64,000 nt of DNA, from positions 310,001-374,000 of the forward strand of contig NZ_LN999832.1 in NCBI RefSeq assembly GCF_900048035.1, in the 5' to 3' direction. The stretch's first letter is position 1; each line of letters starts with the position of its first letter. The notes beneath the pieces were generated by a model. It made no database searches. It was not told the DNA's origin and saw only the letters and a list, made by a program, of their open reading frames with translations. Both the position numbers and the translations under genes were made by a program. This DNA comes from Candidatus Gullanella endobia (GTDB taxonomy: Bacteria > Pseudomonadota > Gammaproteobacteria > Enterobacterales > Enterobacteriaceae). Shown in pieces: positions 8,247 to 64,000 of this stretch.

Positions 8247-9215
8247 TCATTCAAGACCTGCTTGATGCAAATCATGCATATTAATAGCTCCAATCAAATT
8301 ACCTTTAAGATTAATTACCGGTGCAGAGGTAATTTTCTGCTGATGCATTGCTTCTAGCGCAGCGCTAGCGCGCCAATCTGGCAGAAAACGATAGCCAGGA
8401 ATAGTCATCGCTTCAATAATTGGTGCAGTTAATTCTAGTCCTTTTACCAACCATCGGCGGAGATCACCATCGGTAAATACACCAATTACGCAGTCTGTAG
8501 GACTACAAACTGCTGTAAGCCCAAGTCCAGTTCGGCTAAGCTCGAACATTGCATCCATTACTGTCCCATTAATTGTAATACGAGGAATCTGATTACCACG
8601 GCGCATCACATGATATACACGATTAAGTAATTTAATACCAAGATTACCGGCAGGATGAGAACGAGCGAATTGCTCGGGTCCAAAGCCACGCTGTCGCATT
8701 AATGTCATCGTCAACGCATCGCCCATCATCAGTGTATTCACTGCACTAGATGTTGGTACTAACCCCATTGGGCAGGCTTCACGTTCAACACAAATATTAA
8801 GAACACAAGAGGCAGCTTTAGCTAGCGGTGAAGACAAATTACCAGTTAGTGCAATTACTGGGATTTGACTCTCTCCAAGTAATGGTAAAAGTATATCTAG
8901 TTCACGTGCATGACCAGAATAGGAGATAAATACTACCACATCATGAGTATCAATCATACCTAAATCCCCATGCAACGCTTCTGTCGGATGAACAAAAAAC
9001 GCTGGTGTACCAGTACTAGCTAGCGATGCAGCAATTTTTTTACCGATATGACCTGATTTTCCAATACCGGCGACAATCACTTTCCCTTTGCAAGCTAATA
9101 TTAAATAACATGCAGTAGCAATACTGCCATCTAGACGATCTCGCATCCGATGCGCTTCACTAATTTCAATATCTAATGTTTCACGTGCAAAGGATAGTAA
9201 CTCTTCATTATTCAT
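8247..9215 (-). CDS. gutQ: Arabinose-5-phosphate isomerase, GutQ type
   Basis: Converts ribulose 5-phosphate to arabinose 5-phosphate, the first committed step to Kdo for LPS inner core. 322 residues. An N-terminal SIS sugar-isomerase domain (about 30-180) contains GIGKSGHIGKKIA, STGTPAFFVHP, LHGDLGM and EREACPMGLVPTSS. Two C-terminal CBS repeats (about 205-320) contain GVFTDGDLRRWL. In E. coli this activity is shared by KdsD and GutQ. The details here (YSGHARELD, VMDAMFELSRTGLGL, HVMRRG, GAINMHDLHQAGLE) follow GutQ, not KdsD. It therefore looks like the glucitol-operon paralogue kept as the housekeeping enzyme. No gut/srl genes surround it. The ATG has a weak upstream AATAAAG. A 40-nt palindrome sits 42 bp upstream of the start. 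Confidence 0.85.
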   Translation of the reverse strand: MNNEELLSFARETLDIEISEAHRMRDRLDGSIATACYLILACKGKVIVAGIGKSGHIGKKIAASLASTGTPAFFVHPTEALHGDLGMIDTHDVVVFISYSGHARELDILLPLLGESQIPVIALTGNLSSPLAKAASCVLNICVEREACPMGLVPTSSAVNTLMMGDALTMTLMRQRGFGPEQFARSHPAGNLGIKLLNRVYHVMRRGNQIPRITINGTVMDAMFELSRTGLGLTAVCSPTDCVIGVFTDGDLRRWLVKGLELTAPIIEAMTIPGYRFLPDWRASAALEAMHQQKITSAPVINLKGNLIGAINMHDLHQAGLE

Positions 9216-9256: not shown

Positions 9257-9296
9257 ATTTCTATTAAGACTCTCTATAGAGAGTCTTAATAGAAAT
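9257..9296. repeat. Perfect 40-nt palindrome upstream of gutQ
   Basis: The 20-nt left half, beginning ATTTCTATTAAGACTC, is the exact reverse complement of the right half, with no spacer (centre TATA). On the plus strand TTTTG follows. It could be a terminator, a cruciform-forming site or an operator-like element in front of gutQ; the sequence does not decide. Confidence 0.8.
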
Positions 9297-32600: not shown

Positions 32601-34873
32601 AAAGCTTAATATAATAAGATTTTTTAAAACTAACTATTTATATTAAAAGTAGAAATAAAATAGAACTATCAAAAAATAAATATATTATCTTTATTTGCAA
32701 TAGAAATTAGATTAAACAAAGTGTAAAAAATAACAAGATATTTAGATTTTAAAAAAATAAAATGAATAAATAAAATTCTAATTAAATAGATAAAGCAAAG
32801 TAAAACAGTAGCATATAAAGTAAGATAATGTAAAGATAAATAAAAATTTAAAAAAATCAGCTATACATATACATCTAAATACATCATTGTCTTTTTACTG
32901 ACTACTGGTAATTATTTTAAGGTAATTATAAGGCAAATAAAGATATATAGAATATTTTGATAGTATTACCAGCGATAAGTGAAAAAATTAACTATCCTGT
33001 ATAGTCATTTTTAGTATAATTATTGCCAATAAAACAAACAATAATATTATTAGTTTTATAATAGAACATAACAGATAAAATATTTGATATTCTCATATAA
33101 GTACTATGATAAACATACATACTATTTATAAAAAATTTAAAATAGAGAATAACTAAAAATACTTATTAGTATCAGTTATTAGTAATATTAGTTTCATCGA
33201 AATATCGTCATATAACCCCTAATTAATGAAGCATACTAAAGTTTTGATATAAGTATTCAATATAGTAGCTATTTATATTTTTATTTAGTTTCTAATTGAT
33301 TAAAGAGAATGAAGCACATTTTAATTTAATGAATTCGTTAAATTAAATTAATCTAGAATAGTATTACTACGTATACCAAAAAATTAAAATATTCATTTTT
33401 TAAAGTTTTATTAAGTTTCTAAAGTATTTAGAAGATAATATTTATTATTAACTAGCTAATGAATGATACAGCACGTATCACTACTAACTAATTTTTATTA
33501 AAAAGCTGATAATAGCGAAATTAGCTGCTATTAATAAAAACTGTTAGGTCCCATAGGTAAATGGTGATATTATAGTAGCTATAACAGTGGTTATCTTTAA
33601 TGGAAAAAGATATTAGTAACTTCTAGTACTAATTAATCTAGAAATGAAGTTTCATAAAAACTTTCTATAAACTATTTTGTTAACTCCAGAAACAGTTAAA
33701 TTGCACTAACTGCACTAACATATATAGTGATTCTAACATAATCAAAGGTAATTATAATAACTATTATTTATACTAACTCAGTAGGAAATAAAAGTATCAT
33801 ATTCACTGTAGTATAAAACACACTCTCAAATTAGCTAGATATAAATAGTTAAAAGTCTGCTTGCTAGTAGAATACAGAAATATCATATAGCAAAATATGC
33901 TAACTATCATTCTAAAAATATTAAGCATGGTAGCATCATGACATCTGCTTTATTTTGAAATTTATTAAAAAGAAAAAATTAGCTAGACAATATCTATTAT
34001 AAAATTATCTTCATAATTACCATCGGAATAAGCATATTACTATATGATAAATTTAAAAATAGAAAAATAGACTTATACAAATATAATCTCTACTAAGTTC
34101 GAAAATAAAACTTTTATTTTCGCATATTTAGAATTTATATTCTATGTATTCACTAATAATCACCTTTCGGTGTCTACCTTTATGCTAAAAGGTATTAAAC
34201 TTTCAGCGATATACTACTAAAAATAGAGATTTACTAACTAGTAAAACATTTTTCTATTAAGAATTACTATATATAAAGTCTATATTTAACTAAAAGATAT
34301 TAAGATAATTTTACAGCAAAATTAATTAGTATAGTACTGGAAATATTATATAAATATTTCTTTATGTTTATCTATGAATGATATTATTCCCTTTTAAATA
34401 GAGAAAATATCATCAGATATAATAGCATTATTATATTCACTTAAATATTGGAGTAAATTTCTATTAGCAGTGCTGAATTTATCCTATTTATATTGCTTAT
34501 AGTTAAATAATTAATGAATAACAAAATACCTAAAAAACAGTACTGTATTATCTCTATCAGGCATTAATTTATTTTAAGCTTTAAGCTATCTCTAAAAATT
34601 AATTAAGATTAAGCAATACAATTTCACTGACCTGAAATATATCTCTGCTTTATTTATGCTACTAGTCACTTCTAGATTAGAAATAAATAGTATCTCGCTA
34701 CAATTTAGAATACTAAAAAATCTTCAACATCAATAAATAACATGATGATATATAAAAATTGTTGAATTTGTAGTAAATAAATCTAATCAGAAAACTATCG
34801 GCCTAGATTATTAAAAGTTTTCTAAAAATGATTAATGCGATATTCATAATCATACTGTAATAGATATAACAAT

Positions 34874-34897
34874 ATATCGCTATATCGCTATATCGCT
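34874..34897 (+). repeat. 8-bp tandem repeat, three units
   Basis: ATATCGCT occurs three times in exact tandem inside the desert. Probably replication slippage. Confidence 0.8.
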
Positions 34898-60135: not shown

Positions 60136-62712
60136 TTACTGGACAGCAATAATATGATTTCCTTGTATATCCAATCTGATTGGTTTACCAGGTAAAAATT
60201 GACCAGATAAAATTTTTTGTGATAATGGATTTTCGATTTCTTGTTGAATAGTACGTTTCAGAGGACGTGCACCATAGATTGGATCAAAGCCAGATTTTCC
60301 TAATAGTGCTAAAGCTTCTTCGCTTATAGTCATAATATAACCACGCTCTTCTAACCGCTGATATAGATGCTGTAGTTGAATTTTGGCAATCTTAGTAATA
60401 TGTTCCAGTTTTAAAGGATGGAAAACAACAATCTCATCTATACGGTTTATAAATTCAGGCCGGAAACGATTTCTTAATACATCAAATATAGTATCTTTCA
60501 TTTCCTGATACTTAATCTGAGTAAAACGATCTTGAATAATATCCGATCCTAGATTCGATGTCATGATAACAACGGTATTACAAAAATCTACTGTACGTCC
60601 CTGACCATCAGTTAAACGTCCATCATCTAGTAATTGTAATAGAATATTAAAAATATCGGAATGTGCTTTTTCGATTTCATCTAGAAGGATAACTGAATAA
60701 GGACGGCGGCGCACCGCTTCGGTCAGATATCCTCCTGCTTCATAACCAACATATCCAGGAGGAGCACCAACTAAGCGAGATACTGAATGTTTTTCCATAA
60801 ATTCAGACATATCGATACGCACCATAGCTTGTTGACTATCGAACAAGAATTCAGCTAGTGCTTTACACAGCTCTGTTTTACCTACCCCAGTTGGTCCAAG
60901 AAATATGAAAGAGCCAATAGGTTTGTTTGGATCTGAAAAGCCAGCACGACTTCGACGGATAGCATTAGAAACTGCTTCCACTGCTTCATTTTGTCCAATG
61001 ATTCGCTGATGTAAATCCTGCTCCATGCGTAGTAATTTTACCCGTTCACTTTCTAGCATTCGAGAAACAGGAATTCCTGTCCAGCGAGCTAATATTTCAG
61101 CAATCTCAATATCGGTTACACGATTACGCAGTAATCGCATAATTTTTCCTTCAGTATGCGAGATCGCTGCTAGCTGTTTTTCTAGTTCAGGAATTTTCCC
61201 ATATTGCAATTCTGACATCCGTGCAAGATCTCCGACACGTCTTGCCTTTTCGATCGAAATCTTCGCTTGTTCTAATTCTGTCTTTAAGCGTTGGGTATCT
61301 AACAAAGAGACTTTTTCTGCTTTCCATTCTTCTTCAAGTTCAAAGTAATCGCGTTCTTTTTTTGAAAGTTCATCATTAAGGACTGCTAATCGTTTAATAC
61401 TAGCATCATCCGATTCTTTTTTTAGAGCTTGTTGTTCCAATTTTAATTGGATAATACGGCGATCTAACCGATCAAGCTCTTCTGGTTTTGAATCCATCTG
61501 AATACGAATACTAGATGCAGCTTCATCAATAAGATCAATAGCTTTATCAGGTAATTGTCTATCAGTAATATACCGATGTGATAATGTTGCAGCAGAAACA
61601 ATGGCTGGATCAGTAATTTGTACATGGTGATGAAGTTCATAACGTTCTTTCAAACCACGCAGAATAGCAATAGTATCCTCTACATTTGGCTCAGTAATAA
61701 ATACTTTTTGGAATCGCCGTTCTAGCGCAGCATCTTTTTCAATAAATTTGCAATATTCATCAAGTGTTGTTGCGCCAACACAATGTAGCTCACCACGGGC
61801 TAATGCAGGCTTTAGCATATTACTAGCATCCATTGCACCATCAACCTTTCCAGCTCCTACCATGATATGTAGTTCATCGATAAATAAGATAATATTACCT
61901 TCTTGCTTAGAAAGATCGCTTAAAACACCTTTTAGTCGTTCTTCAAATTCACCACGGTACTTCGCACCTGCTACAAGTGAACCCATATCAAGCGATAATA
62001 CCCGATTATTCTTAAGACCTTCTGGTACTTCACAATTGACAATACGCTGTGCTAATCCTTCAACAATAGCAGTCTTACCAACTCCTGGTTCACCAATGAG
62101 AACAGGATTATTTTTAGTGCGCCTCTGAAGTACCTGAATAGTACGACGAATCTCTTCATCACGCCCAATGACTGGATCAAGTTTACCCTGTTCAGCACGC
62201 TCAGTTAGATCAATAGTAAATCTTTTTAATGTTAACCTCTGATCTTCTGCGCCTTGATCATTAATCTGCTTACCTCCGCGAATTTGTTCAATAGCCTGAG
62301 TAACAGATATTATTGTAACACCTGCTGACTTCAGTAAGTCTGATAAAGTGTCTCGCGACTCAAGCGATGCAATAACAAAGAGCTCAGAAGAAATAAAGTT
62401 ATCGTCGCGTTTTTTCGCTAACTTGTCACATAAATTTAGTACTCGTATTAAATTTTGAGAAGGCTGTACTTCATTTTCCCTAATACCTTCTACCTGTGGC
62501 AAATTTTCACAGGCTTGTTCTATCGAACTGACAAATGAAATAATGTTAACCCCTACAGATTGCAGCAGAGAACGAACGGTACTACTTTCCTGTTTTAACA
62601 GGACGAGCATCACATGTAATGGTTCGATAAATTGATTATCTCGCCTAAGAGCTAAAGACTGAGCATCAACAAGGGCAAGCTGGAATTTATTAGTAAAACG
62701 ATCCAGATGCAT
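60136..62712 (-). CDS. clpB: Disaggregase chaperone ClpB
   Basis: Hexameric AAA+ Hsp104-family ATPase that, with DnaK, rescues aggregated proteins. Full length at 858 residues (E. coli 857). The order is an N-terminal ClpN domain (1-145), then NBD1 with Walker A GEPGVGKT and Walker [10 protein letters not shown] long coiled-coil middle domain (about 400-525) follows, then NBD2 with [29 protein letters not shown] and sensor region [20 protein letters not shown] start with GGAG at good spacing. A sigma32-like promoter lies 39 bp upstream. The residue at which E. coli uses an internal GTG start for its shorter form is Ile (ATT, 62263-62265), so that form is probably lost. Confidence 0.99.
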
Positions 62713-62750
62713 AACTTCTCCAATTTTAATAAAATTACTATTAAAAGTAG

Positions 62751-62778
62751 AAATAAGGTCGTTTATTTAAAATTCAAG
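62751..62778 (-). promoter_or_regulatory. Sigma32 (heat-shock) promoter of clpB
   Basis: On the minus strand, CTTGAA (62773-62778) is followed after 14 bp by CCTTATTT (62751-62758), close to the sigma32 consensus CTTGAA-N13-15-CCCCATNT. It is placed correctly, about 39 bp before the clpB ATG. It suggests that heat-shock control by RpoH still operates. Confidence 0.7.
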
Positions 62779-63011
62779 AACATTATTGTTAATAACTTAA
62801 AAAGTAATCACTCTTCCATACATCTTAGATAGGCTTGAAAAGCGATAATGTTATAAAATATAAGTTTTATATACTAAGTGATAATTATTTTTTAATAAAA
62901 GAAAAAACATAGAGTCTTTTTCTTCACCCTATCATTCCTGCTATAACATAGGGTAAACTAACTATTTAAAGTTATAAACACTGTAGTTCATTTAAAGCTT
63001 GGTAAGATATC

Positions 63012-63035
63012 GCCTTATCCTTCTAAGGATAAGGC
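63012..63035. repeat. Hairpin between rluD and clpB
   Basis: GCCTTATCC and GGATAAGGC arms (extendable to 11 bp) around TTCTAA. It lies downstream of rluD in its reading direction, beyond the tandem repeat. There is no T-tract on the minus strand, so a role as rluD terminator is uncertain. Confidence 0.55.
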
Positions 63036-63057
63036 TTCAATTATACTACGATCAGGC

Positions 63058-63339
63058 AAAGAAAAAATGTTTTTAACTTTAGATAAATTAATAATGATAA
63101 TTAACAACGATTTCTCGCTACGAGATCGAAATATTTACTAAAGGCCTGTATAAAGAAAAAATGTTTTTAACTTTAGATAAATTAATAATGATAATTAACA
63201 ACGATTTCTCGCTACGAGATCGAAATATTTACTAAAGGCCTGTATAAAGAAAAAATGTTTTTAACTTTAGATAAATTAATAATGATAATTAACAACGATT
63301 TCTCGCTACGAGATCGAAATATTTACTAAAGGCCTGTAT
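63058..63339. repeat. 94-bp tandem repeat, three identical copies
   Basis: Units 63058-63151, 63152-63245 and 63246-63339 are identical at every base by my reading. Each starts AAAGAAAAAATG and ends GGCCTGTAT, and each holds an inverted repeat TCTCG-CTA-CGAGA near its middle. No unit codes for a protein on its own. The absence of any mismatch in fast-evolving DNA means a very recent duplication, gene conversion, or an assembly effect. Confidence 0.97.
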
Positions 63340-63414
63340 TAAGCAAATATTAAAGTAAGCAATAATAAATTATTTTTTAGTTTATAACTTAAAAAATTAT
63401 TATAGTTAGTCGAT

Positions 63415-64000
63415 TTACATACTAATCTTAGTATCTCCAAATAAATTTTTATCTTCCTTTAATGCTGATATTAGCTCTATGATATCTTTCGGTAGTGGTG
63501 CGTTCCATTCCATTTCAATGAAAGTAATTGGATGATGCAAACGTAGAAAGGTGGCATGCAACGCTTGGCGATTAAAATTACATAACACTTTGTTAAGGGT
63601 ATTAGAAGTCTTATTTTGTAATCTAGAAAAACCGCCGTAGAGTGGATCACCTACCAGTGGATGATTAATATGTGCCATATGTACACGGATCTGATGTGTT
63701 CGCCCAGTTTCTAGACGCAATCGTAGACGAGTATGGTTACGAAAATTCTCTATTACACGATAATGGGTTACCGCTGGCTTACCCATCGAGCATACTGCCA
63801 TATGTGTCCGTTTAATGGCATGACGTGCGATTGCCTGTTGTATAGTACCACAAGCAGTTATGCTACCAATAGCGATCGCTTCATATTCACGAGTAATTTC
63901 TCGTGCTTGAAGCGACTTCACTAGACAAGTTTGCGCTGATAGAGTTTTAGCTACTACCATCAGACCAGTCGTGTTTTTGTCAAGACGATGCACTATTCCT
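63415..64000 (-). CDS. rluD: 23S rRNA pseudouridine synthase RluD (5'-partial)
   Basis: Makes pseudouridines 1911, 1915 and 1917 in helix 69 of 23S rRNA, important for subunit joining. The gene runs off the right edge. The frame continues upstream of the GTG at 63993 as GIVHRLD, so that codon is internal. The catalytic Asp is in HRLDKNTTGLMVVAKT, followed by REITREYEAIAIG, THMAVCSMGKPAVTHYRV, RLETGRTHQIRVHMAHINHPLVGDPLYGG and RQALHATFLRLHHPIT. The 195 visible codons cover most of the catalytic domain; the N-terminal S4-like domain lies outside the window. The C-terminus is somewhat shorter than in E. coli. Neighbour yfiH has been lost, leaving the tandem repeat between it and clpB. Confidence 0.97.
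   Translation of the reverse strand, partial: GIVHRLDKNTTGLMVVAKTLSAQTCLVKSLQAREITREYEAIAIGSITACGTIQQAIARHAIKRTHMAVCSMGKPAVTHYRVIENFRNHTRLRLRLETGRTHQIRVHMAHINHPLVGDPLYGGFSRLQNKTSNTLNKVLCNFNRQALHATFLRLHHPITFIEMEWNAPLPKDIIELISALKEDKNLFGDTKISM

Follow-up and report, generated by a model that had tools for sequence, protein, structure and literature searches.

The spacer between clpB and rluD in Candidatus Gullanella endobia carries three identical 94-bp units arranged head to tail, and this array is most probably the product of a recent tandem amplification, without selective effect, in non-coding DNA that has decayed. The window analysed was a stretch of 64,000 nucleotides, in which the three copies occupy 282 bp (63058-63339) with 0 mismatches. 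TRF called the array at 63058-63347 with period 94, 3.1 copies and a score of 566, the highest among 16 TRF rows in the window (the runner-up scored 104). The repeat finder placed the copy starts at 63058, 63152 and 63246, with spacings of 94 and 94, and a lag-94 exact-match scan gave 188 identical positions in a row, spanning 63058-63339. The three identical tandem copies described in the initial annotation were thus borne out by TRF, the repeat finder and the lag-94 scan. Given the base composition of the spacer, the per-position match probability at lag 94 is 0.319 and for the 188-position run log10 p is about -93, uncorrected for multiple testing; a chance origin of the identity is therefore out of the question. 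The 0 differences in 188 compared positions place divergence between copies below about 1.6% at 95%.

Table 1. Features of the clpB-rluD region (window coordinates).
Feature	Position	Strand	Evidence
clpB, intact, 858 aa	60136-62712	-	
Spacer clpB-rluD; relatives carry yfiH (pgeF) there	62713-63414	.	
28-bp block upstream of clpB, unchanged in relative G004	62751-62778	-	
Copy 1 of 94-bp unit	63058-63151	.	sequence, repeat finder, lag-94 scan
Copy 2 of 94-bp unit, identical	63152-63245	.	sequence, repeat finder, lag-94 scan
Copy 3 of 94-bp unit, identical	63246-63339	.	sequence, repeat finder, lag-94 scan
Imperfect echo (8/11) of unit start, right edge	63340-63350	.	
rluD, cut by window end	63415-63999	-	

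The ends of the array had been described as abrupt. The period is indeed broken on both sides, with C preceding copy 1 and T following copy 3; however, the 11 nt on the 3' side of copy 3 match the unit start at 8 of 11 positions. Agreement of this degree occurs in 0.6% of the spacer's 11-nt pairs. The junction carries this imperfect echo, without exact microhomology. GC content of the unit (0.245) was close to that of the remaining spacer (0.238); that of clpB was 0.380. Close to the array, at 63012-63035, lies an inverted repeat whose 11-bp arms pair perfectly around a 2-nt loop; it is single in the genome when up to three mismatches are allowed.

An assembly artefact, i.e., a true genome with one, two or more than three units whose number was misset by the assembler, is improbable. 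A perfect array of 282 bp can outrun a short read; however, the genome is a single, whole contig (938,041 bp, 99.93% complete), and assemblers collapse perfect tandem copies more often than they invent them.

We surveyed repeats in 264 kb, comprising the window and ten 20-kb stretches (about 28% of the genome). The array was the sole direct exact repeat of at least 24 bp; the remaining exact repeats of that length were four self-complementary palindromes, and no further perfect tandem array of period >16 was found in the 264 kb. The earlier remark that preserved repeats are otherwise lacking held within these 264 kb, and the tandem arrays that TRF listed elsewhere were shorter or less perfect. 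Within the 264 kb examined, the array is one isolated event. A perfect 40-bp palindrome lies at 9257-9296, upstream of the ORF at 8247-9215, and perfect palindromes like it were present in L123, L125 and L132. At 34873-34897, TRF detected a perfect short tandem repeat with unit TATATCGC and 3.1 copies.

The genome retains intact recA, mutS and dnaQ. In contrast to recA, recB is decayed: it is present as four pieces (G000:C1:87859-90081, outside the window), three of which contain stops and none of which scores above the family cut-off. Because mutS and dnaQ are intact and no comparable array occurs in the 264 kb, the array is accounted for neither by a general repair defect nor by a general repeat expansion.

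The non-coding position of the array and its neighbours clpB and rluD were as first annotated. To place the spacer among relatives, we compared ClpB loci (the best 80 of 590, to which a second search added those of 29 further genomes and the genome's own). With the own genome left out, rluD adjoins clpB in 78 of 107 loci with clpB; in 2 of the others rluD lies elsewhere, and for 27 no rluD match above the cut was found in the stretch. Two pairs among the 78 intervals are the same DNA twice, leaving 76 distinct rluD-clpB intervals. Of these 76 comparable intervals, 72 contain a yfiH (pgeF) gene between rluD and clpB, and a yfiH match is absent in four (L106, L116, L117 and L118). The whole genome that carries the array gave no yfiH family match in a search whose control was positive in 8 of 14 genomes, including E. 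coli. Since yfiH occupies the gap in most relatives but is missing from the present genome by this search, the spacer is the former place of yfiH. It now consists of 514 bp of AT-rich DNA when the array is counted once. TRF found arrays in 4 of the 78 relatives' rluD-clpB intervals, all of them short and imperfect, with periods of 17 to 24.

The spacer was searched against 40 genomes, the own included, and gave matches in 11 others. The best was the 28-bp block, which in G004 is identical and lies 39-66 bp before clpB; this block is probably the clpB promoter. The other matches covered 24-58 aligned query bases at scattered places. A sub-threshold Rfam match to Ysr155_RyfD (18.7 bits against a cut-off of 42, E 0.36) was noted at 62693-62837 on the minus strand; RyfD adjoins clpB in enterobacteria, so the place of the match fits.

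In its own 938,041-bp genome, the 94-bp unit occurs at one site, the array. Matches to the unit at E <= 0.001 were obtained in 63 of 392 family genomes (the own included; two candidates were scored per genome). Own copies aside, the matches listed were 19-53 bp long and fell within unit positions 1-56, and none of those listed for the 392 genomes was a relative of the whole unit. We take these short matches to reflect AT-rich composition. Phages and plasmids gave no unit match at 1e-5, and one exact 33-nt piece had 0 matches in viral contigs.

We also considered whether sequence likeness points to an origin of the unit in yfiH, and rejected the likeness as evidence. By tblastn (E 2.1), 16 residues encoded in the unit are similar to YfiH residues 51-66 and lie at a fitting place, and in 40 shuffles a likeness as good was seen in 0 (width 16) and 3 (width 10). 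This was not upheld with 500 shuffles over eight widths, in which the best case with position restriction, a 16-residue match, was equalled by 38 of 500, and the best case without it by 53 of 500. In the restricted test, the opposite strand scored above the yfiH strand at five of the eight widths (8, 10, 20, 30 and 40). A YfiH profile search of the spacer gave E 0.94 or worse, with the best match on the wrong strand. Local DNA alignment of the spacer with the G004 region gave a score equalled by 92 of 500 shuffles, and for six other relatives the score was equalled by 40 to 200 of 200 shuffles. None of these similarities of the spacer to yfiH is significant, and the one argument for descent of the unit from yfiH is its position, which fits.

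A regulatory or replication role had also been proposed for the array, and a hairpin had been noted in the unit. The hairpin is present, but the unit as a whole shows unremarkable folding (z -1.05 on the plus strand and -0.38 on the minus strand). Promoter-like sites in the region numbered 5, against 5.7 expected in shuffles, and 3 of these are one site repeated in each unit. When matches as poor as E 5 were admitted, Rfam gave two in 62600-63500, both outside the array. The distance from the array to the conserved block before clpB is 280 bp.

A terminator-like 5-bp stem occurs once per unit on the rluD-sense strand (3 against 0.3 expected in shuffles), 75 bp beyond the rluD stop. Such stems would suit an improvised, reiterated terminator, in which weak hairpins that appeared after loss of yfiH end rluD transcripts and insulate clpB, the copies being kept by selection. 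However, the three stems are a single sequence counted thrice; the stem has 5 pairs and a tail without a clean T-run, and the folding score on the rluD-sense strand is the ordinary one given above. We consider this explanation very unlikely. An iteron-like or DnaA-box-like array that binds protein or serves replication is less credible still: the copies are phased and identical, but no match to the DnaA-box consensus TTATNCACA with up to one mismatch was found in 63058-63339, the neighbours are clpB and rluD, and nothing similar was found among plasmids or phages. With ordinary folding, chance-level promoter-like sites, a weak terminator-like stem, no DnaA box and a distance of 280 bp to the clpB block, neither the proposed role nor any other function of the array is supported.

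In bacterial intergenic minisatellite or VNTR loci, near-identical units, each tens of bases long, follow one another head to tail in non-coding DNA, and a VNTR is defined by copy-number differences between isolates. The array is likewise head-to-tail in non-coding DNA, and its 3 x 94 bp fall within the minisatellite-type range of units of about 10-100 bp; it is a real, ordinary minisatellite-type array, known from one genome. No congeners were found among the genomes searched with the spacer (40) and with the unit (392 family genomes). Other classes were rejected. A CRISPR array needs unlike spacers, and here the whole 94-bp period is identical; a REP/BIME/ERIC-type element needs many dispersed copies, and the unit is at one place only. 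An iteron origin or DnaA-box cluster was set aside for lack of a DnaA box with up to one mismatch and of a replication gene, the neighbours being clpB and rluD. A structured RNA of known family was discarded on the absence of an Rfam match in the array and on the two folding scores.

Tandem repeats are also on record for other insect symbionts. The table in PMC7821994 gives 111 tandem repeats for Portiera of Bemisia tabaci and 10, 31 and 3 for its other three Portiera, and the authors link missing dnaQ to extended intergenic regions (PMC7821994, PMC5322561). As far as these accounts go, B. tabaci Portiera resembles the present case in having tandem repeats and enlarged intergenic DNA in a reduced insect symbiont (PMC7821994, PMC5322561); in contrast to its 111 repeats (PMC7821994), the 264 kb examined here contain a single long perfect array, and dnaQ is intact. 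In Blochmannia, tolA is described as containing tandem units of 81-102 bp in 4.4-6.5 copies, within a coding gene and in five of six species (PMC4389277). The present unit falls in that size range and likewise belongs to an insect symbiont; unlike the tolA repeats as described there (PMC4389277), the array is non-coding and was seen in one genome.

The array probably arose in four steps. The first, shown by the comparison with relatives, is the loss of yfiH between rluD and clpB, which left an AT-rich spacer. A 94-bp stretch would then have been duplicated at the imperfect short repeats on its two edges; replication slippage and illegitimate recombination are both possible sources of this first duplication. 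Once 94 bp of perfect homology stood in tandem, either further slippage or an unequal exchange that depends on RecA may have added the third copy. The copies would be identical because the event was recent or because gain and loss of copies keeps them alike. An intact recA and a decayed recB fit such a two-step route of duplication and unequal pairing. Concerted evolution had been suggested for the array; among dispersed copies it is excluded, because the unit occurs at one site only, whereas homogenisation within the array is as compatible with the copy identity as a recent event is. Copy-number variation, also raised in the initial annotation, is plausible.

By itself, the array has little significance and gives no evidence of a new mechanism. 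It offers a clean single case of a young tandem duplication in a reduced genome that retains recA and mutS. If its copy number varies, the array would be usable as a PCR length marker for symbiont strains between hosts.
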